A DNA stretch of 64,000 nt from Deltaproteobacteria bacterium (GTDB lineage Bacteria > Myxococcota_A > Bradymonadia > REDH01). The stretch is taken from positions 1 to 64,000 of the forward strand of contig REDH01000078.1 in assembly GCA_007693585.1 (NCBI GenBank). The letters are read 5' to 3'. The notes under the pieces were generated by a model. The model saw only the letters and a program-made list of their open reading frames with translations. It did no database searches and was not told the origin of the DNA. A program made the position numbers and the translations under genes. This document shows, piece by piece, positions 40,465 to 61,713 of this stretch (position 1 is its first letter; every line of letters starts with the position of its first letter).

Positions 40465-42156
40465 ATGCTCAGCCACCTCTCCGTCCGGAACTTCACCCTC
40501 ATCGACCACCTCGAGCTCCCGCTCCGGCCCGGCCTCACCGTGCTCTCGGGGGAGACCGGGGCCGGCAAGTCGATCCTCTTCGACGCCCTCGGCCTCCTCT
40601 TCGGCGCCCGCGCCAGCACCGACACCATCCGCGCCGGCGCGGATGAAGCGTTCGTCCAGGCCGAATTCCTCCTCGGACGCGGCGCGGCGCCCGTGCGCCA
40701 CATCCTCGACGAAGCCGGTCTCCCGGACCCCGAGGATACCCTCCTCCTGCGGCGAACCCTCCACCGCTCCGCGCCCAACCGTGTCTTCGTCAACGACACC
40801 CCGGCCACCGTCAGCCTCCTCCAGCGCCTCGTCGCCCCCCTCGTCGAGATGCTCGGACAGCACCAGCACCTCGCCCTCCTCAGGCCCGAGGTCCATCGCG
40901 ACCTCCTCGACGCCTTCGGCGGCCTCGTCCCCCTGCGCGATGAACTCTCCCGCGCCGTCGACCTCTGGCACGAGGCCCGCCGCAACCTCGACGGGCTCCG
41001 CAGCGCCGCGGAAGGCCGCGAACAGCGCCTCGACTACCTCTCCTTCCAGATCCGGGAGATCGAGGAGCTCGCCATCCAGCCCGGCGAGTTCGACGCCCTC
41101 GACGCACAGCTCCGACGCGCCCGCAACCTCGAGAAGCTCCGCGACGCCGCGCGAACCACCTCCGGTGCACTCCACGACCGCAACGACTCCGCCACCGACG
41201 CCGTCGGCGTCGCCCTCGCTGCGCTCCAGAAGGCCGCCTCCCTCGACCCCGATGCCGCCGCGCTCGTCCCCAGGCTCGAGGAAGTGCGCGTCCTCCTCGA
41301 TGACCTCGCCCACGACGTCCAGGCCTGGGCCGGGGACCTCGTCAGCGCCGACGATCTCGACACCATGGAGAGCCGCCACGAGAACCTCCGGCGTGCCTTC
41401 CGGCGCTTCGGCGGCGACGAGGACACCCTGCTCGCCCGACTCGACGAGATGCGCGAGGAAGCCGCCACCCTCGAGAACTACGGCGGCAGTCTCGAAGACG
41501 CCATGGCCCGCGAGGCGGACTGCTTCCGGACCGCCCTCGACACCGCACTCGACCTCGACCGCCAGCGCGCCGCCGCCGCCGAACGCTTCTTCGCCCAGGT
41601 CGCTCACCTGCTCGACGACCTCGCCATGCCCCACACCCGCCTCTCCCTCCAGGTGAACCTGCCCGACGAACCGGAACGGCAACGCCGAAAACTCTCCCGC
41701 CACGGGCTCGCCGATATCGAGATCCTCTTCTCCGCCAACCCCGGGGAACCCCCCAGACCCCTCGGCCGAATCGCCTCCGGCGGCGAACTCAGCCGGCTCA
41801 TGCTCGCCTTCAAGACCGTCCTCTTCGAACAGGACCCAGTCGACACCTACGTCTTCGACGAGATCGACACCGGACTCGGCGGCGCCGTCGCCGAAGTCGT
41901 CGGCCGCATGCTCGCCTCCCTCGCCGATGGCAGGCAGGTCCTCTGCATCACCCACCTCCCCCAGATCGCCTCCTTCGCCGACCAGCACTTCCAGGTCTCC
42001 AAGCACGTCGATGGAGATCGGACCACCTCCCGGATTGTGCTATTGTCCGACGAAGCCCGGGAGGAGGAGATCGCCCGCATGCTCGGCGGCCGCAAACTCA
42101 CCGACGCCACCCGCGCCCACGCCCGCGACATGCTTCGACTGGCCCGCACCCCATGA
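40465..42156 (+). CDS. recN: DNA repair protein RecN
   Basis: 563 residues. This SMC-like ATPase acts in double-strand break repair. Walker A GETGAGKS lies at 29-36 after LSHLSVRNFTLIDHLELPL. The coiled-coil arms occupy the middle (LERQRA-type heptads, with the family block LDYLSFQIREIEEL), and the C-terminal half carries the signature ASGGELSRLMLAFK and Walker B VFDEIDTGLGGAVAEVVGR, then QVLCITHLPQIASFAD. Length is normal. The last four bases overlap the start of the M23 peptidase gene (ATGA). Codons are strongly C-ending (Leu almost always CTC). Confidence 0.97.
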   Translation: MLSHLSVRNFTLIDHLELPLRPGLTVLSGETGAGKSILFDALGLLFGARASTDTIRAGADEAFVQAEFLLGRGAAPVRHILDEAGLPDPEDTLLLRRTLHRSAPNRVFVNDTPATVSLLQRLVAPLVEMLGQHQHLALLRPEVHRDLLDAFGGLVPLRDELSRAVDLWHEARRNLDGLRSAAEGREQRLDYLSFQIREIEELAIQPGEFDALDAQLRRARNLEKLRDAARTTSGALHDRNDSATDAVGVALAALQKAASLDPDAAALVPRLEEVRVLLDDLAHDVQAWAGDLVSADDLDTMESRHENLRRAFRRFGGDEDTLLARLDEMREEAATLENYGGSLEDAMAREADCFRTALDTALDLDRQRAAAAERFFAQVAHLLDDLAMPHTRLSLQVNLPDEPERQRRKLSRHGLADIEILFSANPGEPPRPLGRIASGGELSRLMLAFKTVLFEQDPVDTYVFDEIDTGLGGAVAEVVGRMLASLADGRQVLCITHLPQIASFADQHFQVSKHVDGDRTTSRIVLLSDEAREEEIARMLGGRKLTDATRAHARDMLRLARTP

Positions 42157-43622
42157 TCCACCCCACCGACAGCGGCACGATCCGGAGCAGGGCCCCCCTG
42201 AGACTCCGGCGCCGCCGGCGCCGCCGAATCCTCGCCGCCTCCCTCGTCGCCCTCGGCGTGCTCGCCATCCTCCGCCACGGAGACCCCGTCCCCGACGAGA
42301 TCGAGACCACCACACCCGCCACCGCACCCGCCACCGCCGAACTCCCCACAGACCGGCTCCTCACCCTCACCGCCCCCACCCTGCGGATGCCGCTGGCCGT
42401 CGACGCCGACCCCGCAGTGCCCGCCGAGGCCGACTCCCCCACCGTCGCCCCGACCTGGGTCGAGGGACGCATCGCCCCCGACCAGTCCGTCTTCGCCGCA
42501 CTCCGCGCCCACGAGATCCCCGCGGCCAGCATCCACCCCGTCGTCGCCGCCGTCGGCGAACACTTCGACTTCCGACGCGCTCGCCCCGGGCACCGCTTCG
42601 AGGCCGAGCTGGACCACGAGGGCAACATCCTCCTCTTCCGCTTCCAGACCAGCCCGGAGACCATCTACGAGGCACGACGCACCGACGAGGGAACCTACCA
42701 GGCCGGACTCGCCAGCCTCGAACTCGAGGTCCGCATCGAGAGCCTCTCCGCCATCGTCGAGTCCAGCGTCATCGCCGCCATCGTGCGCGCCGGCGAGGAC
42801 GAGGCACTCGCCCAACGCTTCGCCGACGTCTTCCGCTGGGACATCGACTTCGGCCGCGACACCCGCCCCGGCGATGCCCTCCGCATGCTCTACGAACGCG
42901 TCTACCTCGACGGCGAGTTCCTCCGCCACGGCCGCGTCCTCGCCGCCGAGTACCGCGGCTCGCGCGCCCAGGAGTCCGCCTGGTGGTTCGACGACGACGA
43001 CGGCACCCGAGGGTACTTCGCCGCCGACGGACAGCCCCTCCAGCGCATGTTCCTCGCCTCGCCCGTCCCCGGCGCACGCATCTCCAGCCGCTTCAACCCC
43101 GACCGCATGCACCCCATCCTCAACGTGCGACGCCCCCACCTCGGCGTCGACTACGCCGCACCCACCGGAACCCCCATCCTCGCCACCGCCGACGGCACGG
43201 TCCGCACCGCCGGATACCGCGGCGCATACGGAAACTTCATCCTCATCCGCCACGCCAACGGCTACGAGACCGCCTACGCCCACCTCCACCGCATCGGACG
43301 CGGCATCCGCCCCGGTGCACGCGTCCGACAGGGGCAGACCATCGGCACCGTCGGCACCACCGGACTCTCCACCGGACCCCACCTCCACTACGAGCTGCGA
43401 CGAAACAACCGCCACATCGACCCCCTCCAGCACCGCGAGACCCGCGCCGAACCCCTGCGCGGACGAGCCCTCGCCGACTTCAACCGCGCCCAGGCCCGCC
43501 TCCAGGCCGAACTCGAACGCGTCGCCCTCCCCGACGTCGACCCCACAAGCCTCCTCGCCGAGGAACCCGAGGACGAAGACCTCAAGGACTGGGAAAACTG
43601 GGTGATGCCCGATGACCTCTAG
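42153..43622 (+). CDS. M23 family (LytM) metallopeptidase, membrane-anchored
   Basis: 489 residues, start coupled to recN by ATGA. A very basic N-terminus (RLRRRRRRR) precedes one transmembrane segment (about 26-42). Then comes a Thr/Pro linker, a domain resembling the OapA/LysM-like region of DipM/NlpD-type endopeptidases (SVFAALRAHEIPAASIHPVV), and the LytM domain at about 315-430 with the zinc ligands H-x-x-x-D (HLGVDYAAP) and H-x-H (GPHLHYEL). Active-site residues look intact, so it probably cleaves peptidoglycan cross-links. The acidic C-terminal tail overlaps the next gene by 11 bp. Confidence 0.94.
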   Translation: MIHPTDSGTIRSRAPLRLRRRRRRRILAASLVALGVLAILRHGDPVPDEIETTTPATAPATAELPTDRLLTLTAPTLRMPLAVDADPAVPAEADSPTVAPTWVEGRIAPDQSVFAALRAHEIPAASIHPVVAAVGEHFDFRRARPGHRFEAELDHEGNILLFRFQTSPETIYEARRTDEGTYQAGLASLELEVRIESLSAIVESSVIAAIVRAGEDEALAQRFADVFRWDIDFGRDTRPGDALRMLYERVYLDGEFLRHGRVLAAEYRGSRAQESAWWFDDDDGTRGYFAADGQPLQRMFLASPVPGARISSRFNPDRMHPILNVRRPHLGVDYAAPTGTPILATADGTVRTAGYRGAYGNFILIRHANGYETAYAHLHRIGRGIRPGARVRQGQTIGTVGTTGLSTGPHLHYELRRNNRHIDPLQHRETRAEPLRGRALADFNRAQARLQAELERVALPDVDPTSLLAEEPEDEDLKDWENWVMPDDL

Positions 43623-45333
43623 CCGCCACGACGGCCACCGCTGGATCCGGCGCATCCTCCCCGTCGCCGGCATCCTGCTCCTGCTCCAGATCCTCCTCGC
43701 CGCCGCCGCGCTCGTCCACGTCACCACCGCCGACTTCGACCGCGCCGTCCGAATCCTCGGCGAAACACGCCCCCTCGCCCACGCCCCCACCCCCCTCCGC
43801 GTCCACGTCTACGCCCGACACACCGGACTCGGCATCCCCCAACCCGATCTCACCGCCACCATCGACCCGGGCGACGGCCCACAACCCCTCCCCCTCTCCG
43901 CCGTCGACAGCCGCGGTGAGTTCCTCCAGACCACCACCCGCCTCTCCGGCGAAGCACGCGTCCACCTCACCGCCTCCCTCGCCCCCGGCGACGAGCGCCA
44001 GCTCTCCCTCGACCTCATCCCGTCCTCCGGACGCGACCCCTTCGCCGACCCCTCCCTCTGGCGCCCCCCCCCCACCGGCCGGCGCGGAGGGCCCCAGATC
44101 GGCTCCGGCGAACGGCCCGGCGTCCGCTTCGTCGGTCCCCTGACCTCCGCCACCGCCGCCGAGCCGTCCACCACCGACCAGGACTCCGGCAGCCCGGACT
44201 CCACCGACCAGCAGCGCCCTCCCGATGTCCCGTCCTGCGACTGGGATGTCCGTCCCGTCAGCCTCGCCGGCCCCCCCGCACGCTGGGTACGCAACCCCCT
44301 CCTCGTCCGCTTCGTCCGCGCCGACGGAACCCCCGCGGCCCGCACCACCGTCCACCTCGCACGCACCGAGGGCGAGGGCCCCGTGCCGCCCCCGCTGACA
44401 CGCACAACCGACTCCCTCGGCATCCTCGGCTTCGACGTCCGGCCCGAGAACGCCGAACGATGGACCGTTCGATGGACCTGCGACGACGCTCCCGTCGAAC
44501 GCACCCTCCTCGTCGCCCCGTCGTGGGCAGGCATCGGACTCCTGCCCCCTCCGGGCATCCACCCCGACGGAGAACCCCTCCCGCTCCAGGTGGAGCAGCA
44601 ACGACACTGGGGCTCATGGAACGCCTCCCTGTTCTGCGAAGGGCGCTGGGTACACACCGAGTCCGCCCCCGTCCGCGAGGGCCTCTCCCGGGTCACCCTC
44701 CAGCCCGGTCCTCTCGGCGCGCGCGAGACCGGTGCCATGCGCATCTGCCGAGTCGCCGCCTCCACCTCCCTCTCCACCCCGGAGCAGCGTGGCTTCTGGA
44801 TCGCCGTCGCCGACGGCGACCTCGACCCGAACGATCGCGCCGCTGCGCTGCTCGAACGCGTGCAGCGCGCCCAGCACCGACTCGGTCCTCACCTCGCCGA
44901 CGCAAGCGCCGCCACCCTCACCCGCGCCCGCCCCGACGAGGCCGAGCGCTTCGCGCAGTGGCTGCTCGCCGTCCCCGAACCGCCCTCCCTCCGATGGCCC
45001 CTGCTCGCCGACGACCAGGACGCGCACGGACAACGCATGCAGGCCTGGCGCGAACGACACACCCGACGCCTCGTTCTCCTGCTGCTCGCCGACGGCGGCC
45101 TCATCACGCTCGGCATGGCCGCCTTCGCCATCCCGGCCCTCCGCCGCCGCCGCCGTGCGCTCATGGCGGTCATCGACGACATCGACGCCGCCGCCGATGA
45201 CCCCGATGCTTGCGGAGCGCCCGCCGAGGAGCTGGTCGACAGCCGCAGGGCCATCCTCGCCCTCGTGTTCGCCATGGGCGCCGTCGTGTGCTTCGGCATC
45301 GCCCTGGCCACACTCGTCTCCTTCATGCGCTGA
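43612..45333 (+). CDS. Membrane protein with Ig-like extracytoplasmic region, unknown function
   Basis: 573 residues. The start (ATG 43612) lies inside the end of the M23 gene. One N-terminal transmembrane helix (LPVAGILLLLQILLAAAALV, about 16-36) is followed by a long extracytoplasmic part with two beta-sandwich-like repeats (P-L-R-V-H-V-Y-A-R-H-T and P-L-L-V-R-F-V-R-A-D-G-T patterns), and two helices near the C-terminus (about 475-495 and 545-570). The repeats resemble the macroglobulin or carboxypeptidase-regulatory type used in cell-surface proteins. Tight packing with the M23 peptidase suggests a shared cell-wall role. I do not recognise the family. Confidence 0.8.
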   Translation: MTSSRHDGHRWIRRILPVAGILLLLQILLAAAALVHVTTADFDRAVRILGETRPLAHAPTPLRVHVYARHTGLGIPQPDLTATIDPGDGPQPLPLSAVDSRGEFLQTTTRLSGEARVHLTASLAPGDERQLSLDLIPSSGRDPFADPSLWRPPPTGRRGGPQIGSGERPGVRFVGPLTSATAAEPSTTDQDSGSPDSTDQQRPPDVPSCDWDVRPVSLAGPPARWVRNPLLVRFVRADGTPAARTTVHLARTEGEGPVPPPLTRTTDSLGILGFDVRPENAERWTVRWTCDDAPVERTLLVAPSWAGIGLLPPPGIHPDGEPLPLQVEQQRHWGSWNASLFCEGRWVHTESAPVREGLSRVTLQPGPLGARETGAMRICRVAASTSLSTPEQRGFWIAVADGDLDPNDRAAALLERVQRAQHRLGPHLADASAATLTRARPDEAERFAQWLLAVPEPPSLRWPLLADDQDAHGQRMQAWRERHTRRLVLLLLADGGLITLGMAAFAIPALRRRRRALMAVIDDIDAAADDPDACGAPAEELVDSRRAILALVFAMGAVVCFGIALATLVSFMR

Positions 45334-45503
45334 GTCGCCCGACGACCGCGCGGGACCGAACCGGTTGCCGTCGGCCGCGAAGGCGAGTAACGTGACGCAC
45401 GGGCGGGAAGCGTGCGCGCCCGCAACCGCCGGCTTCGAGGCCGCATCCCCCGTCCAGGGTCCGCGCGATCGCGGAACGATCCCGACGCACAAGAGCCATT
45501 GCC

Positions 45504-47135
45504 ATGAACCGCCTGCTCATCGTCGCCCTCCTCGCCAGCCTCGTCCTGGCCGCCTGCTCGGATATGCCCGTCCGCACCGTGGACGACGCCATCGCAGCCG
45601 AGGAGTCCGCGATCATCGCGACCCCGGTCCGCAACGCCGTGGACGTCATCTGGGTCGTCGACAACTCCAACTCCATGCGCCCGTTCCAGCTCCGCCTGGC
45701 GCGCGACCTGCCCGCGCTGGCCTCCGCACTCGCCGAGCTCAACGTCGACTTCAACTTCGCCGTCACCACCGTCTGGCGCGACGATACCGGCTTCCGCGAC
45801 CGACCCGACCCCCGCGAGCTCGACTCCCGCTTCCGACCCGACGGCTTCCGCGAGCGCTGCGAGGAGCCCCGCGGACCCGTGCTCCGCGCGGTCGACTACC
45901 GCGACAACCGCGGCATCGTGGACATCGACGCCCTCCAGAGCGACTTCGAGTGCCTCTCCGCCGTCGGCGAGGAGCCCAACGCCGCCACCGAGATGGGGCT
46001 CCAGGTCGTCCAGCGTCGCATCATCGAGGAGTTCCAGGGCAACGACCCCGTCGGCTTCCTGCGCGACGACGCCCTCCTCGTCGTCATCTTCCTCAGCGAC
46101 GAGGACGACTGCTCCCAGGAACAGCTCCGCATCACGAGCAACGCCTGCTACCAGCGAACCAACTACTTCGACCTCACCGACGTCGGCGAGATCGAACGCA
46201 CCCTCCTCGAGGCCAAGGGCGCCAACTTCGAGGACCCCGCCAGCGTTCAGGCCGCCCGCGACCGTGTGCTCGTGCTCGGCCTCATCGGCCCCCCCATCGT
46301 GGGTGGCGTCTACAAGCCCACCCTGATCGGCCCCGTCAGCGAGAACGCCGCCACCACCTGCAGCGGCGTGTTCACCGGCCTCCCAGGCCTCCCCGACTCC
46401 TGCAGTGTCGCCGCCGACTGCGGCGTCAGCGGCGGCATCCTCCAGTACGTCTGCCAGAACAGCGAGTGCGGCCTCGTCGTCACCGCCAACTCCTCCTACC
46501 GCTACTGGGACCTCATGCGCCGCTTCGTCCCCAGTTACCGCCCCCCCGGTGCCGAACCAGAGGAGTCCGGGAGCGCCAGCGAAGGCGAAGAGACCCCCGC
46601 CGCTCCCGAGGGCGTCGACATCTGGGAGAACGACCCGATCGGCTTCATCCCCCCGCCCAGCGAGCAGCCCTGGCGGCCGATCTGCGCCGCGGACTACAGC
46701 CCCGTGCTCCGCGCCCTGGCGCGGCAGATCACCAGCGTCCTCGAACTCAACTGCCTCCCCTCCCGGCCTCGGGGCTGCGAGACCAACGCCGACTGCTCCG
46801 CCGGCGCTCAGTGCATCCTCTCCACCAACCCGCAGTTCGGTGGATGCCCCGCCCAGAACCTGTGCACCGACTTCCGCATCCAGGTCGAGCTGCTCGAGGA
46901 CGAACCCCGCCGCGCACGCGGCTCGATCACCGCAGGAGAGTACTGCGCCAACTTCGACAGCAACCGCGAGACCACCGGAGGCTACATCCCCGCAGAAGAC
47001 GCCGAGTTCTACGTCGACTTCCGCGCCCTCCGATGCCCCTACGGCGCCGGCTTCAACTTCACCCAGGGCAACCAGCCCGCCGATGACGTCCAGTTCCGGC
47101 TCCGCTACCCGGTCTCCATCAGCGACGACTTCTAG
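45504..47135 (+). CDS. VWA-domain lipoprotein with cysteine-rich modules
   Basis: 543 residues. Lipobox LVLAAC (Cys 18). A von Willebrand factor A-like domain follows with the metal-ion site D-x-S-x-S at residues 53-57 (VVDNSNSM) and VVIFLSDEDDC as the later strand. The remainder is rich in Cys, including C-x5-C modules (CSVAADCG, CETNADCSAGAQC). Many Myxococcota encode such surface lipoproteins; in Myxococcus, CglB combines a VWA-type fold with many Cys and serves as the gliding adhesin worked by the Glt machine. Whether this gene plays that part is unknown. A weak promoter-like pair TTGCCG/TAACGT with 17-bp spacing lies at 45365-45393. Confidence 0.87.
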   Translation: MNRLLIVALLASLVLAACSDMPVRTVDDAIAAEESAIIATPVRNAVDVIWVVDNSNSMRPFQLRLARDLPALASALAELNVDFNFAVTTVWRDDTGFRDRPDPRELDSRFRPDGFRERCEEPRGPVLRAVDYRDNRGIVDIDALQSDFECLSAVGEEPNAATEMGLQVVQRRIIEEFQGNDPVGFLRDDALLVVIFLSDEDDCSQEQLRITSNACYQRTNYFDLTDVGEIERTLLEAKGANFEDPASVQAARDRVLVLGLIGPPIVGGVYKPTLIGPVSENAATTCSGVFTGLPGLPDSCSVAADCGVSGGILQYVCQNSECGLVVTANSSYRYWDLMRRFVPSYRPPGAEPEESGSASEGEETPAAPEGVDIWENDPIGFIPPPSEQPWRPICAADYSPVLRALARQITSVLELNCLPSRPRGCETNADCSAGAQCILSTNPQFGGCPAQNLCTDFRIQVELLEDEPRRARGSITAGEYCANFDSNRETTGGYIPAEDAEFYVDFRALRCPYGAGFNFTQGNQPADDVQFRLRYPVSISDDF

Positions 47136-47557: not shown

Positions 47558-47749
47558 ATGCCCGCCAAGCAGAAGCTGACCGTCTACGTGCCTGATGGCA
47601 TCCACGAGGAGATGAAGGCCGAGGCCGACCGCCAGGACCGCTCCGTGTCCTGGCTCGTCGAGCACTGCTGGAAGATGGCGCGCAACCGGATGCAGTCCTA
47701 CCCCGGTGTCTCCGAGCTCGTCGAGGACGTCGCCGCCGACCACACCTGA
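47558..47749 (+). CDS. Small ribbon-helix-helix-like protein (TIGR04563-like)
   Basis: 63 residues from ATG 47558 with GAGGTG upstream. A strand (KQKLTVYVP) is followed by two helices (IHEEMKAEADRQDRSVSWLV, EHCWKMARNRM), the beta-alpha-alpha order of ribbon-helix-helix DNA-binding proteins. I recall a small-protein family common in Myxococcota with the same DRSxSW(I/L)V-x-x-xWK core, annotated TIGR04563; this fits well. It may regulate its own transcription. There is no toxin-like partner next to it. Confidence 0.75.
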   Translation: MPAKQKLTVYVPDGIHEEMKAEADRQDRSVSWLVEHCWKMARNRMQSYPGVSELVEDVAADHT

Positions 47750-48056
47750 AGGCGCCAGGCCCCCGGGCAGCAAGGTCCATGCCAGTGCCCCCGTCCATGA
47801 CGGCGCGCACCGGGACCTCGCGGGGGACCACACGCGACCGTCCGAGGCGCTCGGAGGGCGTCGACATGGACGGTCCCTGACCGCGCTCAATGATTCCCCG
47901 GGGGATCACACACGACCGTCCGTGGCGCTCGGAGATCCTCGACGCGCCCGGTCCCGGACGACTCTGCTCGCGTCGCCCCCCGCGCACCTCCCGAGGCACC
48001 GGGGCGTCGCGCACCCCCCGTGACCGCCCGCTCCACCGCGGGTCGGCCCCCCCCGG
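47750..48056. repeat. Intergenic region with an imperfect 36-bp direct repeat
   Basis: Two 36-bp copies (47821-47856 and 47899-47934) differ at three positions; the period is 78 bp. Both begin CGGGGGA-CACAC-CGACCGTC and end GGCGCTCGGAG. Similarity continues weakly into the flanks. The region lies between convergent genes and no coding frame in it looks real. Confidence 0.7.
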
Positions 48057-48986
48057 TCAGTCCTCGTCGCGACGCTCGGCCTCGATCCGCGCCTGCAGCC
48101 CGGACAGGCGCTGCTGTGCCGTGGCACGCCAACCGTGGGTGCTGAACCGTCCGAGGAACGTCTCGTAGGCGGCCACCGCCGCCTCGCGCTGTCCGGAACG
48201 CTCCAGGGACTCCGCCATGCGGAACCACCCCACCGCGGCATCGCGGCGCCCCAGCGTCTCGGGACTCAGTGCCTCCTCGTACCAGGAGGCTGCCGCGCGA
48301 TAGTCGCGCAGCGCGTGCAGCGACTCCGCCAGCCACCACGCGCGTTCCGTCGCGTACGGGACCACGGCCGCGAAGCCGTGCGATCGCAGGAGGGCGTCAC
48401 GCGCCTCGGCCCACTCGCCGGAGCCGGCGTATCGTCGGCCGGCCAGCCACGCATCTTCCGCCAACCGATGGCGGTATCGCTCCAGCTCTCGTCGGAAGAG
48501 CTCCACGGTGGTCCGGTCCTGCAGGCGCCCCTGCACCTGCCCGAACCGCTCGACGGCCTCCTCGTATCGCTCGGCGACGATAAGCTCGTGAAACTGCCAG
48601 GCCTCGCGCTCGGACTCCCGCCGGGCCTGCAGGTCGGTCTCCAGTTCCGCGATTCGGGCCTCCAGCGTCGTGATGCGCTCTGCGGCGAGCGCCTGGTCGA
48701 GGGCGTTGCGCTCCACGCTGGCCCGGAAGAAGAGGAGCAGGCCGATGAATGTCAGCGCGGCGAAGAGGAAGTAGGCGACGGCGGAGTTGAAGAAGCTCCG
48801 GCGCTCCAGCCCGTCGACGCTGCGCTGGAGCTGGCGGATTTCGCCGCCGAGGGACCGCACGGCATGTTCGGTCCGGATCGAGAGGTTGCGCGCCTCGGTG
48901 GTCTCCTGTCGCACGACCGCGAGCGCGTCCTCGCTTCGAGGCGCGGGTTGGCCTGCGCCACTCGACCGCGTCTGGTCCCGGCTCAT
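48057..48986 (-). CDS. Membrane-anchored coiled-coil/TPR protein
   Basis: 309 residues from ATG 48986, coupled by a 4-bp overlap to the small gene upstream. An N-terminal cytoplasmic stretch with a heptad-like helix (about 25-65) precedes one transmembrane helix (about 68-88, AVAYFLFAALTFIGLLLFF), then a coiled coil (about 93-135, ERITTLEARIAELETDLQAR) and four or so TPR-like units (WAEARDALLRSHGFAAVVPY, YRAAASWYEEAL, REAAVAAYETFLGRF). The coiled-coil plus TPR layout recalls CpoB/YbgF, though that protein is soluble and periplasmic. It is the last gene of a four-gene envelope operon. Confidence 0.82.
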   Translation of the reverse strand: MSRDQTRSSGAGQPAPRSEDALAVVRQETTEARNLSIRTEHAVRSLGGEIRQLQRSVDGLERRSFFNSAVAYFLFAALTFIGLLLFFRASVERNALDQALAAERITTLEARIAELETDLQARRESEREAWQFHELIVAERYEEAVERFGQVQGRLQDRTTVELFRRELERYRHRLAEDAWLAGRRYAGSGEWAEARDALLRSHGFAAVVPYATERAWWLAESLHALRDYRAAASWYEEALSPETLGRRDAAVGWFRMAESLERSGQREAAVAAYETFLGRFSTHGWRATAQQRLSGLQARIEAERRDED

Positions 48987-49183
48987 GGCTCCACGGTGGC
49001 GGAGAAGGGAGACAGGGGAGGGGGCTCCTGCACGTTCCCGTCGCGCAGGCCGGTGACGACGCCGAAGACGGTCGCACCGATCGTCCAGGCGATCAGCGCC
49101 ACGATGACGAAGAGTCCGGCACGCCGGAGACGGTTGGCGCGTGCCTGCAGGCGGGGGGAGAGGTCCGTCTTCTCGGTCATCAT
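48983..49183 (-). CDS. Small single-span membrane protein
   Basis: 66 residues; the start can be ATG 49183 or 49180. One transmembrane helix (about 22-45, AGLFVIVALIAWTIGATVFGVV) is flanked by a basic N-terminus (RLQARANRLRR) and a short Pro-rich tail, so the N-terminus is probably cytoplasmic. Its start overlaps the stop of the lipoprotein upstream, and its stop overlaps the start of the coiled-coil/TPR gene, implying translational coupling through all four genes. Family not recognised. Confidence 0.72.
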   Translation of the reverse strand: MMTEKTDLSPRLQARANRLRRAGLFVIVALIAWTIGATVFGVVTGLRDGNVQEPPPLSPFSATVEP

Positions 49184-50952
49184 GGCAGGTCGCGCGGAGC
49201 GGAGGCGTCGTCGGTCGGCTCGAGGGCCGGCAGCAGCAATCTGTACACGCCTTCGGCTCCGGTGATCGAGGTGGCGACCGTGCGCGCCGTGTTCCCGTCG
49301 AGGATCCAGGCGTTGACTTCGGCGCCGACGAGCGGCGAGCCGTCCGGGCGCAGGGTTCGCCCGCTGACGACGCCACTCTCGGGCAGGACGAAGACGTGGT
49401 CTTCCGGCGGCTCCCCGTCAACCTCCACGCGAACGGGGAAGATCGCCCGCGCGAGCCCGCGCTGTGCGGGCGGGGTGATCTCCACCCGCTGTGTTCCGGG
49501 CAGGGCGCGAAGCACGAAGCGGCCGTCCTCGCCGGTCTGGGCGTACGCGCCGAGGAGTTGCGGCGTCACGCCGAGCTCGGCAAAGGTCTCTTCGTCGCGC
49601 AGCGGCTGGAAGGTGACGCGGGCGTCGACCACGGGATCGACCCCGTTGGGTGCGAGCACGACGCCCTGCACCTCGACCCGCTCTCCGAGCTCGATGTCGA
49701 GGGAGGTCTCGCGCACTGCGGGGGCGATCTCGACGTCGCGCACGGACTGGATGGCGAGGGCCGGGTCCTGGGGGATCACACTCAGGGTGTAGCGCTGCGG
49801 GAAGAGCGTCAGGACGGCGCGCCCGGCGTCATCTGTTCGGGCCGAGGCAGCGTAGGAGAGTGCCTCCGGCCGGACGCGTCGTGGGTCCGCGGTCTGTGGT
49901 GGCAGGCTGTCCTCCGACGACGTGTCGGGCAGGGTGGGCAGTGCGCCGCTGCGCGCGCTGAGGTTGGCGCCGGGGACCGGTGAGCCATCGGGCGCGCGGA
50001 CGTGGACGGACAGCTCCACCGGCGCACCCTGTCGTCCCATGTCGAACGTGAAGACATCGTCGCGCGTCTGTTCGGTGAGGTGCACGGGTTCGAAGGTGAT
50101 GTTCGGCACGGGCGCGGCGCTGTCCTGGGTCGGGCGCACGCTGAGCCGGTAGCGGGAGGCCTCGAGGGGCGCGTGCACCAGGAACTCGCCGCTGGCATCG
50201 GTCACGCCGGAGGTCGAGAGGTGGGTTCGATCGAGGCTGAAGGCCTGCACCCGCACGCCCGCGGCGGGGACGTCGGCCCCGCTCGCGTCGTCACGCCTCA
50301 CCAGCCGGCCCCGCAGGGGGCGCGCCCGCTCCGCTGGCGGGATCACGAAGGTCCGCTCGGTGCTGTCGGTGATCAGAACGTTGCTGAACCGGGTAGGCGG
50401 CGTATTGGGCATCGCCGGGCGGATGGTGACGTCGTAGGTGCCTGGACTCAGAGCGACATCCCAGTACCCGGCCCGGGCTGCGGTCTCCTCGCTGATCGCG
50501 GTCACCGGATCGAAGAGGTGGGCCCAGGGGCCGACGGGGACGAACCGGATCTCGGCGTTGCGCGCTGCGACCCGCTCGTCCGGGTTCACCGCGTCGTAGA
50601 CAACCGTGCCGAAGTAGCGCACGGGCGGGGTGACCACCAGGTCGGGGACCGGGGTGCCGAGCCGGACGTCGAGCTCGGCGAGCTGCGGGGCGAGGCCGCT
50701 CGCGCTCTGCGGCGGGCGCAGGTGCAGGACGATCCGCAGGGGCGTGTCGAAGCCCTGCGCGCACAGGCCGGATTGGCACGAGTAACCTTCCGGGCAGTCC
50801 GCCGATGTGGAGCAGAGCAGGTCGGGCAGATCCACCGAGGCGGTGTCGGGCTCGGCACAGCCGACGACGACGAACAGGGCGCTCAGCAGAAGGCCGGCGA
50901 GCCGGGATCCGCGGATGGGGCGACGAATGGTCCGGGTCGCCTCAGGGGTCAT
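49180..50952 (-). CDS. Lipoprotein with Cys module and repeated carboxypeptidase-regulatory-like domains
   Basis: 590 residues from ATG 50952. Lipobox VVVGC (Cys 32). A C-x5-C-x5-C-x4-C module follows at residues 47-64. The rest holds a series of beta-sandwich domains of the carboxypeptidase-regulatory/SdrD type, recognisable by repeated G-x-V-T-D-A-S-G-E-F, A-R-T-D-D-A-G-R-A and T-G-E-D-G-R-F turns (three or four copies), ending in an S-G-R-T-L-R-P-D-G-S-P-L-V-G-A-E-V unit. It is an outer-surface or periplasmic structural lipoprotein. It overlaps both neighbours in the operon (11 bp upstream, a few bases downstream). Confidence 0.85.
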   Translation of the reverse strand: MTPEATRTIRRPIRGSRLAGLLLSALFVVVGCAEPDTASVDLPDLLCSTSADCPEGYSCQSGLCAQGFDTPLRIVLHLRPPQSASGLAPQLAELDVRLGTPVPDLVVTPPVRYFGTVVYDAVNPDERVAARNAEIRFVPVGPWAHLFDPVTAISEETAARAGYWDVALSPGTYDVTIRPAMPNTPPTRFSNVLITDSTERTFVIPPAERARPLRGRLVRRDDASGADVPAAGVRVQAFSLDRTHLSTSGVTDASGEFLVHAPLEASRYRLSVRPTQDSAAPVPNITFEPVHLTEQTRDDVFTFDMGRQGAPVELSVHVRAPDGSPVPGANLSARSGALPTLPDTSSEDSLPPQTADPRRVRPEALSYAASARTDDAGRAVLTLFPQRYTLSVIPQDPALAIQSVRDVEIAPAVRETSLDIELGERVEVQGVVLAPNGVDPVVDARVTFQPLRDEETFAELGVTPQLLGAYAQTGEDGRFVLRALPGTQRVEITPPAQRGLARAIFPVRVEVDGEPPEDHVFVLPESGVVSGRTLRPDGSPLVGAEVNAWILDGNTARTVATSITGAEGVYRLLLPALEPTDDASAPRDLP

Positions 50953-51556
50953 CGCACTCCCCTTCGAGGACAAGGCTCCAGGAGACCGTTGTCGTGAACG
51001 ACTGCAGGCCCGGGAGGAGTTCGAGTCCCGGCGGCAGATCCTTGAGGATCTCGAGGCGCACGACAAGCGGGCTGTATTGCGGCTCGAGGGGGAAGGCGCA
51101 TCGCAGCAGCCGCTCCTCCGGGACGTCGTAGACGACGAGGTCGGGGAAGGGCTGCTCGAGCCGGGGCTGGAGCTGTCCGCCGCCGAGCTCCCATGTCCGC
51201 GTCTCGCCGGCCAGCGAGAAGCTCCAGCGGTAGCGAAGGACGGCGCCGGTGGGGTCGTAGACGTTGCGCAGGTCGAAGACGGCCTCCCCCGGCTGGGTGA
51301 GATCGATGGCGACAGGGTGCGTGTTGGGCGGGGAGACGTCCTCCGGCAGATGGAACGGCGCGGACTCCGGATCGGGCGGTGCGCCGACGATCGGAGGGCC
51401 GTAGGGGCAGCCGGAGGCGAGCACGCCGAGCAGCAGGACGGTCCACGCTCGGGGGCAGGGTCGGGATGGTCGTGCGGTCGCGGGGGCATGGTCGCGGGGC
51501 GAACGGCTGGGCAGGGAGACGGCGACGCGAGGACGGACACAGGGCGCCGCCGGCAT
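50942..51556 (-). CDS. Lipoprotein, unknown function; first gene of the envelope operon
   Basis: 204 residues from ATG 51556; a TTG at 51610 is the alternative. An unusually long Arg/Pro-rich N-terminus (about 38 residues) precedes the hydrophobic core and lipobox VLASGC. The mature part is beta-rich (YRYRWSFSLAGETRTWELGG-type strands, FPDLVVYDVPEERLLRCAF) and may be an Ig-like fold; it contains two Cys that could form a disulfide. A sigma-54-type promoter (51569-51586) predicts a transcript start only about three bases before ATG 51556, so the mRNA may be almost leaderless. No ribosome site is visible for either start. Confidence 0.75.
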   Translation of the reverse strand: MPAAPCVRPRVAVSLPSRSPRDHAPATARPSRPCPRAWTVLLLGVLASGCPYGPPIVGAPPDPESAPFHLPEDVSPPNTHPVAIDLTQPGEAVFDLRNVYDPTGAVLRYRWSFSLAGETRTWELGGGQLQPRLEQPFPDLVVYDVPEERLLRCAFPLEPQYSPLVVRLEILKDLPPGLELLPGLQSFTTTVSWSLVLEGECDDP

Positions 51557-51568
51557 CGCGCAAATGCG

Positions 51569-51586
51569 ATGCAAGATGCCTGCCAG
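51569..51586 (-). promoter_or_regulatory. Sigma-54 (-24/-12) promoter
   Basis: On the minus strand: CTGGCAGGCATCTTGCAT. It has TGGCAG for consensus TGGCAC, a four-base gap and TTGCA, and the invariant GG (51584-51583) and GC (51572-51571) are 10 bp apart as required. It lies in the 108-bp gap between the sigma-54 activator gene and the four-gene lipoprotein operon and points into that operon. Confidence 0.75.
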
Positions 51587-51664
51587 CGGTCTGCGGTGCG
51601 CGTCCTTCAACGGGGTCCGGTGTCCGGGGTGGGGGCGGGGAGGGGAGAAGTCAGGACATTGCTG

Positions 51665-53494
51665 TCATGCATTGTCCTCGTTCTCGTCGTCGTCCTCGTC
51701 GTCCTCGTCGGTCCGATCGCCTTCCTTTTCGAGGAACCGGAAGATGGTGCGGGGATCGACGCCGAGGTCCCGCGCCGTGCGGGTGCGGTTGCCCTCGTTG
51801 AGCGCGAGCACCTCGAGGATGTAGTCGCGCTGCCAGTTCTCCCGGGCCTCGGCGAGCGGCAGGATGGACGGGAGCTGGTCCTCGCGCAGGTCGAGCTCCT
51901 CGGGGCCGAGGGTGGGCCGTTCGCCGAGGATCACGGCCTTGCGGATGTGGTTCTCGAGCTGGCGGATGTTGCCCGGCCAGGGATGGCGGCGCAGCGCGAC
52001 GAGCGCCTTGCGGTTGAAGCTGCGGCGACCGGTGCCGTACTCCTTCACGAACCGATCGAGAAAGTACTGTGCGATCAGTACGATGTCGTCTCCCCGCTCG
52101 CGAAGCGGCGGGAGCGACAAGCTGACCACGTTGAGGCGGTAGTAGAGATCCTCGCGGAACGTCCCCTCGGCGATCATCGTCTCGAGCTCCCGGTGGGTGG
52201 CCGCGATGACGCGGATGTCCACCGTCTCCGGCCGGTTGTCCCCCACACGGGTCACCACGCGCTCCTGGATGGCCCGCAGGATCTTCACCTGCAGGTTCAA
52301 TGGCATCTCGCCGATCTCGTCCAGGAAAAGGGTGCCGCCGTCCGCGGCCTGGAATCGGCCGGGCTTGCTCGCCGTGGCCCCGGTGAAGGCCCCCTTCACG
52401 TGGCCGAAGAGCTCGGATTCCAGCAGATTCTCCGGGATGGCGCCGCAGTTGATCGTCACGAACGGACCGTCGCTGCGGTTGCTGCGGCGATGCAGCTCGC
52501 GGGCGATGAGCTCCTTGCCCGTCCCGGTCTCGCCGAGGACCAGCACGTTCACGTCGGTCCCCGCCACCCGCTCGACCCGACGGTAGACCTGCCGCATGGC
52601 GTCGCAGGCCCCGATCAGCGAGCCGAAGCGCATCGCCTCGAGGGCCTCGCGCAGCTCCGCGTTGTCGAGGCGAAGCTCGTCGAGCAGCACCGCGTTGCGG
52701 ATCAGCAGCGCCGCCTGGGCGGAGAACACCCGCAGGGTCTCGAGGTGGGTCGTCGTGAACAGGTTCACCACGTTGTTGTTCCCCACGTAGATCAGGCCGA
52801 GAAGCTCGCCGCGCGCCTGCAGCGGAACGCACATCACGCTGCACAGCCGGAGGTTCACCACCGAGAGGCTCTGCGCGAAGGCGTCGTCCTTGAGCGCGTC
52901 GGAGACGATCAGGGGCTCCCGGGTCCGCAGCACCGTGGACACGATGCTGTCGGACAACTGGCGCACCGCATCCGCGATGTTCTCCCGGTCCACGTTCCGT
53001 CCCACCCGCACGCTCGGCTGGCCCTCCTCGTCGAGGAGGACGAGGAACCCCTTCTCGGCCCTCGTGAGGTCGACCACGGCGTCCAGCAGCGCCTCCAGCA
53101 GGCTCTGCGCGTTCTCCGACTGCATCAGCCGGTCCGAGAAGCCGACGATCTCGCGATAGGCATGCACGAGGTCCGCCGTGCTGGCGTTCTCCTGCGTCGC
53201 GCTCACATCGTACAGCCGGAAGTGGACCAGCGTGTCCCCGAGCAGCAGCTCGTCGCCGTGGTCGAGTTCGTGACGCGCGCGCTTTCGCCCGTTCACGATG
53301 AGACGCGCCTGCTGCACCGCCTGGATCGAGAAGGCGCGCCCGTCGAACTGGACCATCGCGTGGGTCTCCTCCATGGCCGCGTCTCGCACGACGACGTCGT
53401 TGTCCGCACCGCTGCCGATGCTGGTGATGCGCCGCGTGAGGTTCACGGTGCGCGGGGCGGAGGCGCCCGGGGGCTGGAGGAGAAGGCTGGGCAT
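51665..53494 (-). CDS. Sigma-54-dependent transcriptional activator with FHA and GAF domains
   Basis: 609 residues. FHA domain at about 16-93, GAF sensor domain at about 128-270 ([30 protein letters not shown]), AAA+ domain at about 293-525 with Walker A GETGTGKE (321-328), the sigma-54-contacting GAFTGA loop (368-373) and Walker [10 protein letters not shown], then a Fis-type helix-turn-helix ([20 protein letters not shown]) and a short very acidic tail ([12 protein letters not shown]). The FHA suggests control by a Ser/Thr kinase; a PEGA kinase is encoded two genes upstream on the same strand. The GAF could sense a small molecule. A -24/-12 promoter lies immediately downstream. Confidence 0.96.
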
Positions 53495-53517: not shown

Positions 53518-54660
53518 TCAGGGAGAGCTGCGGCGGGGCCGGTCACCCTGCCGACGGCTGGAGCGCCGGTCCGGACTGGCGGCCGGATCCGGCGGGGCGG
53601 TGAGCGTGCGATAGTCGACGAGACCCTCGCGGGGGTGCAGCAGGGCACCGTGGAGGACGTTGAGCGCCATCACCGAGAAGAACGCGATCCCCGTGCCGAC
53701 CTGGGCGCGCTGACGCCGCTCGGCGCGGTCGACATCCGGGAAGAAGCCGCGATCGTCCCGCGACGTCTCGTTGAGGATGAACAGCGACGCGCTCGCCACC
53801 CCGAGGGCCGACTGGGCGATGAGATACGTCACTCCGAGCACGTCCCGGTCCATGCTGAAGAATCCGTACCCGAAGGGCATCATGGACACGAGAAGCGGCT
53901 GCTCCCGCACCCGGCTCTCGATGTAGATGATCGCCTCCTCGGGCTGATCCCCGAGCCGCTCCGCGAGCTCCTCCGCGTTGTCCTCCCGCACCCGCTCGAA
54001 GCGCGAGACCACCGGCGCAGGGTACAGCAACGGATCCAGTCGCGCCCGCGGATCCAGCCGCAGCACTTCGAGGAAGGCCACATCCGCGTCTCCCCGCTCC
54101 CCGAGAAAGAACGCGCTCACCCCGTCCAGCGTCCACAGCTCCACGAGGAGCACATCCGACAGGGGCATGGGCTCCGGCCGCAACAGGGGATCCACCCGTT
54201 CGCGAACCGCCCGGTAGTCCCCGTACACGAACGCATCCTGCGCGAACCGCACCGCCGCCTCCACATCGGCTTCGGTCGACGGCCGCTCCCCCCCCACGGC
54301 ATCGGAGGACAGCCCCGCGCCCTGCTCCGCGCCCGGCGTCGGCTCCGCGCTGCCGGGCGCTCCCTCTTCACGCCTCACCGCGTCGCGTCGCGGCGAGGCC
54401 TCGCTCCCGTCCGCCTCCACCCCTCGCTGCGGTTCGGCGTCGTGCTCGCTCCGTCCCGAGGCCACGCTCCGTTGCGGGTCGTCGGGGGAGGCACCGTCGC
54501 CCGCCCTCGACGCTTCCTCTGGTGAGGAGGGGCCGGTCGGTGGAGTCGTGCCAGGGGGGTGCGGGGGGGCGGTGGCGTCCGCGGACGCCACGAGGAGCGT
54601 CGCGAGGAGTGCGGCGGCGAGAGAGGTGGCGAAGCCGCTCGGTGTGGGGTCGAGGCGCAT
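53518..54660 (-). CDS. Exported/membrane protein with TPR-like region, unknown function
   Basis: 380 residues. A signal peptide ([18 protein letters not shown]) leads to a disordered Pro/Ser/Glu/Asp-rich stretch (about 30-125), a helical TPR-like part (about 130-230, [38 protein letters not shown]) and two hydrophobic segments near the C-terminus ([20 protein letters not shown] and [19 protein letters not shown]), ending in a basic tail. It lies 23 bp before the sigma-54 activator and 91 bp after the kinase, all on one strand, so it may link the kinase to the activator. Family not recognised. Confidence 0.8.
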
Positions 54661-54751: not shown

Positions 54752-56692
<1,941 letters not shown>

Positions 56693-57470: not shown

Positions 57471-59735
57471 ATGAGCGAGAGCAACGAGAGCACACCGGCC
57501 GCACGGGCGATCGAGGCGCTGGCCACCTCGATGCAGGAGTCGTTCGAGACGCATCGGCGGATCCTGTCCTTTCCCGACTTTCTGGAGCAGGTGGCCGAGC
57601 ACCCGCGCCGCTTCAGCCGGAGCGCGGCGCAGTACGTGCTGGACGCGCTCGACCACTTCGGCACCAGCACCCTCGAGCGCGGGGGGCAGGACGTCCGTCG
57701 CTGGTCCTGTTTCGACGCGCCCTTCGACGGGGGGCGGGACAAGGTGGTGGGCAACGAGGCCATCCAGGCGGAGGTGATCCGGCACCTTCGGAACTTCGAG
57801 CGCGAGGGGCGGATCAACCGGCTTCTGCTGCTTCACGGTCCGAACGGCTCGGCGAAGAGTTCGCTTGTGTCCTGCATGATGCGGGCGCTCGAGGCGTTCT
57901 CGCACGCGGACGAGGGGGCGATCTACCGGTTCAACTGGATCTTCCCGTCTTCGGCGACCGAGGGGGGACGCATCGGCTTCGAGAAGCGCGGGGCGGAGTC
58001 CGAGGAGCGGCTCGACTCGTTCGCGTACCTGGAGGAGGGGCGGATCGATGCGCGGCTTGCGGGGGAGTACAATGACAATCCGCTCTTCCTGCTGCCGACG
58101 GAGCAGCGCGTGGCCTTTCTGGAGGAGCGGCTGGCGGCGGCGGGCGAGACCGGGTTCGTGCTCTCGGACACCATCCGTCACGGTCAGCTCGGTCATCGGT
58201 CGCGTCAGGTCTTCGAGGCGCTGCTCTCGTCGTGCCGGGGAGATCTCCGTGCGGTGCTGCGCCATGTCCAGGTGGAGCGGTTCTTCATCAGCCGTCGTTA
58301 CCGCGAGGCGGCGGTGACGGTGGAGCCGCAGCTTCGCGTGGATGCGGCCGTGCGGCAGCTCACCGCGGATCGCAGTCTCGCCGCGCTGCCGAGCGCGCTG
58401 CAGAACCAGACGCTCTTCGAGGTCTTCGGTCCGCTCGCCGAAGGGAACCGCGGCATCATCGAGTACAACGACATGCTGAAGCGTCCCATGGACGCGAACA
58501 AGTATCTGCTGTCCACCAGCGAGAAGGGGACGGTGTCCCTCGATACGGGGATTCTCCAGCTCGACGCGGTGCTCATGGCCACGGCGAACGAGACCTACCT
58601 CGAGGCGTTCAAGCAGCAGCCGGACTGGTCCTCCTACAAGGGACGGATCGAGCTCGTGCGCATGCCGTACCTGCTGGACTACCGGGCGGAGGAGCAGATC
58701 TACGACGACCTGCTCGAGGCGCTGGCGCTGGACAAGCCGGTGGCGCCGCACACCACGCATGTGCTCGCCCTGTGGGCCGTGCTCACGCGCCTGCGTCGTC
58801 CGGCGGCGGACGGCCTCGACGACGCCATCCGGGGGGTGGTGGCGGATCTTCAGCCCCTGCGCAAGGCGCTGCTCTACGCGGACGCCGACCTGCCCGCGGG
58901 GTTGAACGGGGAGCAGCAGAACAAGCTGCGGGCCGCGATCCCCGACCTGGCGCAGAAGGGTGCCGAGGGGCCGCACTATGAGGGACGGTACGGGGCCAGC
59001 CCCCGCGAGATGAAGCAGCTCCTGCTCTCCACGGCCCACGGGGAGGGCGAGACCCTGTCGCCGGTGCGCCTGCTGGAGGCCCTGCGTCACTTCATCCGGG
59101 ACGTCTCGGTGTACGAGTGGCTGCGGATCGAGCCGGACGGGTCCTACCACCAGCCGGCGGCGTTCATCGACCAGGTGCGGGAGCACTATCTGGACCGCGT
59201 CATGCGCGAGGCGCGGGAGGCGACGGGTCTGGTCGACGAGGACGAGTATCTGCGGGTGTTCCAGCGATACGTCCAGCATGCGAAGCACTGGCTGAGCGGC
59301 GAGAAGATCGACGAGCCGGGGAGCCGGGCGAGCGTCCCGGCCGACGAGCGCATGCTCGAGGAGGTGGAGCAGGCGCTCGGCCGGGAGGAGGAGGCCCGCT
59401 CCTTCCGCAGCGGCCTGATCCATCGGGTGGCGGCGTTCCGGATCGATCACCCGGACGACGAGGTCGAACTGGCCCGGATCTTCCCGGCGTTCGTGGATCG
59501 GTTGCGCGAGGACTACTACGCGAGGAAGGCGCTGGAGGTGAAGCGCCAGGTGGAGGCCTTGCTCGCGATCACCGATCGGCAGGACGAGCGGGCGGCGGAG
59601 GCGCTCGATCGTGGCCAGCGCGAACAGGCCGACCGGATGCTGGAGTGCCTGTGCAGTCGGTTCGGCTACGTGGAGGCCACGGCGCGGGAAGCCATGGCGC
59701 TGCTGTTCCAGGAGCGGCTTTCGGAGCTGGGCTGA
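57471..59735 (+). CDS. prkA: PrkA-family serine protein kinase
   Basis: 754 residues from ATG 57471 with GAGGAG upstream. The N-terminal AAA-like domain has the P-loop HGPNGSAKSSLVSCM (about 121-135) and the RGIIEYNDMLKRP Walker-B region. The C-terminal half holds the PrkA region (EGRYGASPREMKQLLLSTAH, then RDVSVYEWL). PrkA proteins act with SpoVR and YeaH/YhbH in stress or sporulation responses; in Bacillus an ATP-dependent protease activity has also been proposed. Those partners are not in the window. The protein is longer than the usual 630-690 residues, partly through extra C-terminal helices. Confidence 0.94.
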   Translation: MSESNESTPAARAIEALATSMQESFETHRRILSFPDFLEQVAEHPRRFSRSAAQYVLDALDHFGTSTLERGGQDVRRWSCFDAPFDGGRDKVVGNEAIQAEVIRHLRNFEREGRINRLLLLHGPNGSAKSSLVSCMMRALEAFSHADEGAIYRFNWIFPSSATEGGRIGFEKRGAESEERLDSFAYLEEGRIDARLAGEYNDNPLFLLPTEQRVAFLEERLAAAGETGFVLSDTIRHGQLGHRSRQVFEALLSSCRGDLRAVLRHVQVERFFISRRYREAAVTVEPQLRVDAAVRQLTADRSLAALPSALQNQTLFEVFGPLAEGNRGIIEYNDMLKRPMDANKYLLSTSEKGTVSLDTGILQLDAVLMATANETYLEAFKQQPDWSSYKGRIELVRMPYLLDYRAEEQIYDDLLEALALDKPVAPHTTHVLALWAVLTRLRRPAADGLDDAIRGVVADLQPLRKALLYADADLPAGLNGEQQNKLRAAIPDLAQKGAEGPHYEGRYGASPREMKQLLLSTAHGEGETLSPVRLLEALRHFIRDVSVYEWLRIEPDGSYHQPAAFIDQVREHYLDRVMREAREATGLVDEDEYLRVFQRYVQHAKHWLSGEKIDEPGSRASVPADERMLEEVEQALGREEEARSFRSGLIHRVAAFRIDHPDDEVELARIFPAFVDRLREDYYARKALEVKRQVEALLAITDRQDERAAEALDRGQREQADRMLECLCSRFGYVEATAREAMALLFQERLSELG

Positions 59736-59843
59736 CGGGTTGTCAGCGCGAACGCTTCCGGGCGTGGGGATCGGCGCTGTCGGATCCGCATCGAGTGACG
59801 GTGCGCGGGAGAGGGGCCCGTGCGCCCGTGCGAACCACCGTGC

Positions 59844-59947
59844 CTTCCTGCCCGGCATGTCTTCCGCTCCGGAAGGAGCCGGGAGGCCCACCGAGTTCTG
59901 CGGTGTGGATACCTACTTCCTGCCCGGCATGTCTTCCGCTCCGGAAG
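59844..59947. repeat. Two exact 32-bp palindrome-containing repeats
   Basis: Copies at 59844-59875 and 59916-59947 are identical over 32 bp and 72 bp apart. Each ends in a perfect hairpin, CTTCCG-CTC-CGGAAG. They lie between the convergent prkA and OmpA genes, a usual place for REP-type elements. The other parts of the 258-bp gap show no gene. Confidence 0.8.
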
Positions 59948-59993
59948 AGCCGTGCGCTGGTGCGAACCGCGGTCGGGAGCGGGCTGCGGGGGC

Positions 59994-61190
59994 CTACTCG
60001 AACAGGAAGATGATCTCGGCGCGGTTGTTGTTGCGTCGCCCTTCGGCGCTGCGGTTGTCGAACGCGGGGCTTTCGCGGCCGAAGCCGGCGGTGTTCAGGC
60101 GGGACTGGGTGATGCCGCGCTGCAGGAAGTAGTTCTGCACGTTGTCCGCGCGGGTCTGGCTGACGGCCATGGCGGCCTCGACCCGGGAGCGGTCATCGGT
60201 GTGGCCCTCGATGAGGATGGAGAGGTTGTCGTACTCGCGCATGAGCACGAGGACCTGATCGAGGAGGTAGGTCCGGTTGCTGCGGATCTCGGCGCTACGG
60301 CTCTCGAAGAGGTCGGGGAGCGTGATCACGAGGCCGCGGGCGTCGATTCGGGCCCCTTCGAAGAAGATCTGCTGCGCCTGTTCGAAGAGAGCGCGGACGC
60401 GGGTGTCGCGCATGAGGCGGTCCTGCTCGCTCATGAAGCGGGGCCGGGCGCGCTCGGAGGCGCGGCGGAAGGCGTCCAGGGCCTGGACGGCGATCTCGTG
60501 TGCCTCGTCGAGGTTGCCGTCATCGAAGCGCGTCTGGGCCCGGGTGAGGAGCTGTCGTGCTTCGCGGAGCAGGTCGGTGGCGTACTCTTCGGCCTTCAGC
60601 CCCTCGGCGGTGCGCTGTTCGATGCGGGCTTCCTGGATGGCGTAGACGGCCCGGGTCTCGCTGCGGCTGGCTTCCTCGAGGGTGGCGAGCTCGCGGCGGA
60701 GCTCCTCGTTGCGCTGGAAGAGGGCCTGGACAGCGGCGAGCAGGGTGATGAGCTCGCGTTCGGAGCTCAGTCGCGCATTGAAGTCGTTGCGGCGCTGGAT
60801 CTGGGTCTGGAACTGTGCGCTGGCGCTGGAGAGCCGAGCGCGCGCGTCGGCGGCCCGGGCGTAGTTCTCGGCGGCACGGAAGTACATCAGCCCGACCCGG
60901 GCGGCGAGCTCGGCCTCGGGCATGCGCTTGCGCTGGTACTCGTCCATGGCGCGCTCGTAGAAGACGTCGGAGCGCTGGAGGTTCTCGACGGAGAGGTCGA
61001 GGAGTTCGCGCACGTTGAGGTTTTCTTCCTCGGCGGGGTCGACGCGCAGGAGGGCGCCGGTGGCGGAGCTGCGCAGGGAGTCGAGCTGCGCGAGGTTGTC
61101 CGGCATGGGCGGCAGTCCGCCGCAGGCGCTGGCGAAGAGGAGCGCGAGGAGCCCGAGGGGCAGGACGGTGCGGTTCAGGGTGTGGTTCAT
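59994..61190 (-). CDS. OmpA-family lipoprotein
   Basis: 398 residues. Lipobox FASAC (Cys 23). The middle (about 45-255) is a long alpha-helical region of the DUF4398 kind with coiled-coil character (ELAARVGLMYFRAAENYARA, ELRRELATLEEA). The C-terminal OmpA peptidoglycan-binding domain (about 275-395) has ILIEGHTDD (with the binding Asp), SQTRADNVQNYFLQRGI and NNRAEIIF. It tethers the outer membrane to the wall. It is coupled to the small gene upstream by a 4-bp overlap. Confidence 0.94.
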   Translation of the reverse strand: MNHTLNRTVLPLGLLALLFASACGGLPPMPDNLAQLDSLRSSATGALLRVDPAEEENLNVRELLDLSVENLQRSDVFYERAMDEYQRKRMPEAELAARVGLMYFRAAENYARAADARARLSSASAQFQTQIQRRNDFNARLSSERELITLLAAVQALFQRNEELRRELATLEEASRSETRAVYAIQEARIEQRTAEGLKAEEYATDLLREARQLLTRAQTRFDDGNLDEAHEIAVQALDAFRRASERARPRFMSEQDRLMRDTRVRALFEQAQQIFFEGARIDARGLVITLPDLFESRSAEIRSNRTYLLDQVLVLMREYDNLSILIEGHTDDRSRVEAAMAVSQTRADNVQNYFLQRGITQSRLNTAGFGRESPAFDNRSAEGRRNNNRAEIIFLFE

Positions 61191-61654: not shown

Positions 61655-61713
61655 GGTGGTCCTCCTGGCGGGGTGCAGCGGGTGGGCTGCGCCGGTGCGT
61701 GGGCATCCGGGGC

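Follow-up and report, generated by a model that had tools for sequence, protein, structure and literature searches.

We examined a cluster of four overlapping genes, here called A, B, C and D, together with the genes directly upstream of it, in a 64,000-nucleotide stretch of genomic DNA from a Deltaproteobacteria bacterium (contig REDH01000078.1, positions 1 to 64,000; the window in what follows). A sequence-only reading of the window had proposed that these genes form an operon of envelope proteins behind a sigma-54 promoter. The four genes are where that reading had placed them, with overlaps of 11 bases (A/B), 4 bases (B/C) and 4 bases (C/D), and the only in-frame ATG of A is at position 51556. 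The -24/-12 element that it had noted upstream of A is also present, with its GG and GC 10 bases apart (Table 1). Absent from that reading were the constant parts of the locus that lie upstream of the operon, namely a kinase gene (K), a gene for a membrane protein (X), a gene for an FHA-type activator (R) and an enhancer palindrome.

Table 1. Genes and regulatory elements of the K-X-R and A-B-C-D locus, in order of transcription
Feature	Position	Strand	Description
K	54752-56692	minus	Ser/Thr kinase, residues 9-260; transmembrane (TM) segment near residue 360; C-terminal part periplasmic
X	53518-54660	minus	N-terminal signal-like segment, C-terminal hydrophobic segments; conserved between K and R
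R	51665-53494	minus	FHA-GAF-sigma-54 AAA+ (GAFTGA)-Fis helix-turn-helix (HTH); proposed operon regulator
Enhancer palindrome TGACAGCAATGTCC	51654-51667	minus	overlaps R stop codon, 68 base pairs (bp) before -24 element
Sigma-54 promoter TGGCAGG-CATC-TTGCA	51570-51585	minus	one mismatch to TGGCAYR-N4-TTGCW; predicted transcript start ~51559
A	50942-51556	minus	lipoprotein, lipobox LASGC; no Pfam entry for family; predicted beta-sandwich
B	49180-50952	minus	590-residue lipoprotein; lipobox and Cys module; chain of CarboxypepD_reg (transthyretin-like) domains
C	48983-49183	minus	66 residues, single TM segment
D	48057-48986	minus	309 residues; cytoplasmic segment, TM segment, coiled coil, TPR

Pfam matches and sequence identify R as an FHA-type sigma-54 activator, with an FHA domain, a sigma-54 AAA+ domain that carries the GAFTGA motif, and a Fis-type HTH. 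Strong matches to R occur in 52 of 58 relatives, its HTH is strongly conserved, and an rpoN gene is present in the genome. Identity of R with the phage-shock activator PspF was ruled out (TIGR02974, 260 bits against a cut-off of 443.55). K matches Pfam Pkinase with 162 bits; a PEGA match was weak, below the cut-off and found in one K ortholog only. X matches no Pfam family over the cut-off.

Within the window, the promoter element is not exceptional. Two matches with at most one mismatch to the consensus occur where 0.58 are expected, and two were reached by 11 of 100 shuffles. A single element is therefore within chance in a 64-kilobase window, and its significance comes from comparative evidence. 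Scanning GTDB contigs yielded 292 related stretches; the genomes that hold the best 80 are titled Myxococcota, Myxococcales, Deltaproteobacteria, Bradymonadaceae, Lujinxingiaceae, Sandaracinus, Kofleriaceae, Polyangiaceae and others. Families A and B were defined by gene calls on ~120 of these loci and by iterated profile searches; nearly all of their members in the gene-called loci are directly downstream of R. We searched the 300 bp after the R stop codon with a weighted -24/-12 score, its weights hand-set from the known consensus, and compared the counts with shuffles in two-base blocks; the loci are related to one another. A site lies between R and A in 51 of the 59 loci that bear A/B (shuffle mean 1.6, maximum 5) and was found in 2 of 20 loci without A/B. 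Among 40 further A loci, drawn from genomes outside the window's class, 31 have a site (shuffles 1.4). These loci are an imperfect hold-out, as a few of them are identical or closely related to loci of the first set (e.g. L295/L166, L296/L102, L307/L122 and L319/L134, each pair sharing a site sequence). The recurrence of the site in relatives supports the sigma-54 promoter of the sequence-only reading.

The same regions contain a second conserved element. When spaced pairs of 4-mers were searched for without bias, GACA-N4-TGTC was recovered in 34 of 51 regions, with a shuffle maximum of 6. The extended form, TGACA-N4-TGTCA, occurs with at most two mismatches in 47 of 52 regions (shuffle mean 1.8), with at most one in 40 (shuffles 0.12) and exactly in 19. 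Site and palindrome occur together in 26 of the further loci (31 of which have a site; shuffles 0). The palindrome lies at preferred distances from the -24 element, grouped at 53-55, 64-68, 74-78 and 85-90 bp. These distances show a helical phasing, with a concentration of 0.79 at 11.5 bp that was reached in none of 2000 smooth draws. Distances in the further loci, some of which are kin to the first set, fit the phase of that set (p<0.001 at 11.0 and 11.5 bp, 0.012 at 10.5 bp). One of the two site-bearing loci without A/B (L166) also has the palindrome at a phased distance, on a contig that is cut before A. Within the genome, the combination of enhancer and promoter (first gap range) is found a single time, at the operon.

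A search for an R regulon in the bacterium's own genome by the palindrome alone was uninformative, with 23 matches at up to one mismatch against 18 in the control. Inspection of 22 of the 23 with their surroundings left one intergenic pair with a good sigma-54 site (L185). In this intergenic region (L185:4786-5000, G000:C168) the palindrome (CATGAC-N6-GTCATG) is present twice in full and once as a half, and a sigma-54-like site, TGGCACGGAGCTTGCG, follows 110 bp downstream; beyond it are genes for a 127-residue protein and a lipoprotein.

The K-X-R-A-B gene order recurs in many Myxococcota families, and 161 of the 379 Myxococcota genomes sampled carry A, nearly always as a single copy. A occurs away from R in three families (f2, f4 and f6), in four f2 loci behind a gene with a coaD-like start. 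Neither the site nor the palindrome was found in any of the 12 upstream regions of such A genes (that of L343 being too short to judge), which argues for dependence on R.

The sequence-only reading had named joint conservation of the four genes as a check on itself, and on this point the comparison with relatives went against it: A and B are kept together, C and D are not. In the nearest genome that keeps the operon (G002), C is absent between B and D. D is present in families f1, f2, f3, f4, f6 and f7 and was not found in f5, one weak TPR match apart, although A and B are well conserved there; in a genus of the window's own family (g2), D is present and A, B and R are missing. Other families show C and D in different orientations or at different places. 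Longer C-like proteins (120-150 residues) are neighbors of B in f5, of both B and D in f7, and of an A paralog in f4, the similarity of the 66-residue C to their TM part being weak and the f4 case judged by eye. These placements would suit a dedicated trans-envelope complex in which A and B at the outer membrane join C and D at the inner membrane, as would the overlapping, colinear genes of the present genome and a predicted topology that spans both membranes. The absence of C between B and D in G002, the solitary D of g2 and the conservation of A and B in f5, where D was not found apart from the one weak match, speak against such a complex, and we consider it quite unlikely. On these comparisons, D is an older gene, found with or without A-B, and the conserved unit is K-X-R-enhancer-promoter-A-B, to which C-D is a lineage-specific extension. 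C and D are thus outside the conserved unit, and the four genes are not conserved as one set.

We regard it as moderately probable that the adjacent K-X-R genes have A-B-C-D as their output operon, and that the whole is an envelope-surveillance switch by which a kinase, through an FHA activator and sigma-54, controls outer-membrane lipoproteins. Together with X, the transmembrane Ser/Thr kinase K would sense a condition of the envelope or surface and phosphorylate itself or a partner, and the resulting phosphothreonine would be read by the FHA domain of R. R would bind TGACA-N4-TGTCA, where its own gene ends, and loop the DNA so as to drive sigma-54 polymerase at the -24/-12 element ~50-120 bp downstream. 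The output would be lipoprotein A and the rod-like lipoprotein B, acting at the outer membrane, and the transcript of this lineage would have gained C and D as well, a pair at the inner membrane. The regulatory part of this proposal (promoter, enhancer and R) is well supported by comparative sequence analysis, which gives the gene order, the promoter, the palindrome, the phasing, and the loss of both elements where A is not beside R. We infer that R binds the palindrome and that the kinase is the input, and the products may serve in envelope surveillance or contact. Conditional expression and an envelope location of the products, both put forward in the sequence-only reading, are supported.

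Several observations weigh against this circuit. The nearest operon-bearing relative, G002, lacks a palindrome within two mismatches, and its site is inside signal-peptide codons. Pairs of palindrome and promoter also occur at other loci throughout the phylum: among the 379 Myxococcota genomes, GACA-N4-TGTC followed by a sigma-54 site was found in 111 with one gap range and in 105 with another, against few matches in the control. Many of these pairs are away from an A gene, and the palindrome is often extended to TGTCGCGA. The palindrome may therefore not be private to R, and there may be a wider class of activators that share this enhancer type. The link between the FHA domain and the kinase rests on adjacency and on general knowledge of FHA domains. 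R could instead activate A-B in response to a small ligand bound by its GAF domain, or to a kinase other than K; several loci (e.g. L110, L143 and L154) have no called K or X directly before R and retain R, the promoter and A-B. Nevertheless, K-X-R adjacency is frequent across the sampled families and FHA domains are generally phosphothreonine readers, so that we think an input other than K unlikely.

The remaining points against the circuit concern the start of A. No in-frame ATG, GTG or TTG is present at or after the predicted transcript start of A in 25 of 79 loci, and the element is inside signal-peptide codons in 15 of the 79. Either the 25 exceptions use other start codons, or some of these sites do not mark the true promoter, or A comes from another transcript. 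In the other 54 loci an in-frame start codon follows the predicted transcript start, often within 6 nucleotides, and the distance from predicted start to lipobox Cys is typically 44-80 nucleotides across loci. Only two of the three reading frames carry the element, one in 37 loci and the other in 42.

The two-frame restriction, like the 15 sites within signal-peptide codons and the 25 loci that lack a usual start codon, would be consistent with an element that is a coding artefact of the signal-peptide start of A (M/L-A-R-x-L-L), A-B being expressed by read-through from K-X-R. However, the same nucleotides are kept in two different reading frames, all 12 regions upstream of A genes that are not beside R lack the element, and the palindrome keeps a phased distance from it; on these grounds the artefact was rejected for the whole set. 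In the window, moreover, the element is well ahead of the signal peptide. The ATG of A is 3 nucleotides after the predicted transcript start, which is 150 nucleotides from the Cys, and A would have an unusually large number of residues (49) before the Cys. We consider a coding artefact very unlikely.

The circuit could extend further. K-X-R-A-B might be an undescribed, phylum-wide envelope-sensing system in which A and B feed back on the periplasmic part of K, and in which the promoter lies at the start codon of A and yields a near-leaderless mRNA; we view this extension as possible but doubtful.

No recognised function had been noted for any of the four gene products. No Pfam match was found in any of 45 A proteins. 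The description needs amending in part for B, which matches Pfam CarboxypepD_reg, and for D, which has a TPR repeat. The AlphaFold2 model of A (mean predicted local distance difference test score, pLDDT, of 85.7) is an all-beta sandwich. A fold search with it gave no PDB match at E 0.001 or better, and a profile search against PDB sequences gave weak cadherin-type matches only. B scores 72.8 bits against PF13620 (cut-off 32.3), a family matched by 40 of 42 B members, and its model (mean pLDDT 85.2) is a chain of beta-sandwich domains. A search of PDB sequences with D found nothing useful.

Other features of the window were noted around the locus. In the gap beyond the end of the operon (~47820-47960) are two imperfect direct copies of ~60 bases (GGGGGACCACACGCGACCGTCCG... 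and GGGGGATCACACACGACCGTCCG...). A mismatch-free match to TGGCAYR-N4-TTGCW, TGGCATGGACCTTGCT (47769-47784, minus strand), is antisense to the end of a small RHH gene (47558-47749) and may be due to chance. Positions 42153-47135 encode an M23 (Csd3-like) endopeptidase, a 573-residue protein and a lipoprotein (45504-47135), the last a conserved neighbor of D in f1 and f2. Beside K, genes for a PrkA-type kinase, an OmpA-family lipoprotein and an MscS-type channel occupy positions 57471-63688; the PrkA and OmpA genes stay adjacent to K-X-R in f2. Farther away are a single 4026-residue open reading frame rich in TPR repeats (8919-20999; first third scanned) and a protein in which an FHA domain is combined with a TonB C-terminal domain (5942-7663).

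The output proteins resemble known proteins in part. By PDB sequence profile B matches NOMO2, and by Foldseek its fold matches pilin and adhesin stalks; NOMO and the CnaB-type pilin stalks are both CarboxypepD_reg/transthyretin-like repeat proteins. Unlike these, B is a bacterial lipoprotein with an N-terminal Cys module, and its low whole-chain template-modelling scores (0.1-0.2) against pilin and adhesin stalks confine the match to domain folds. D, in which TPR follows a coiled coil and which matches TIGR02795 weakly, recalls YbgF/CpoB of the Tol-Pal system, from which it differs in its cytoplasmic segment and TM anchor; identity with YbgF/CpoB was ruled out (26.1 bits against a cut-off of 90.1).

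The controller belongs to a known type. FHA-type sigma-54 activators are known in myxobacteria and have been proposed to couple Ser/Thr kinases to sigma-54; what feeds into them and what they control is difficult to tell from sequence. Jelsbak et al. in 2005 reportedly described FHA-domain sigma-54 enhancer-binding proteins of Myxococcus xanthus. R shares with the M. xanthus proteins the FHA domain, the sigma-54 AAA+ domain and the Fis-type HTH; in contrast to them, it adds a GAF domain, adjoins its own kinase gene, and has its enhancer and target operon directly downstream. Activators of this type are cited for M. xanthus development (PMC12288465). Francke et al. (2011; PMC3162934) proposed that sigma-54 generally controls the bacterial exterior, and associated it with exopolysaccharide, lipoprotein and envelope genes. 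The lipoproteins A and B fit that scheme; the present case differs in being a specific locus with an undescribed lipoprotein family, and no such gene set appears in the passages of that article that we consulted. Our searches of the literature available to us found no paper on this locus. Because kinase, activator, enhancer, promoter and output are adjacent here and recur in many families, the link between Ser/Thr kinases and sigma-54 becomes directly testable at a defined palindrome, with outputs that include, in A, a lipoprotein family without a Pfam match.

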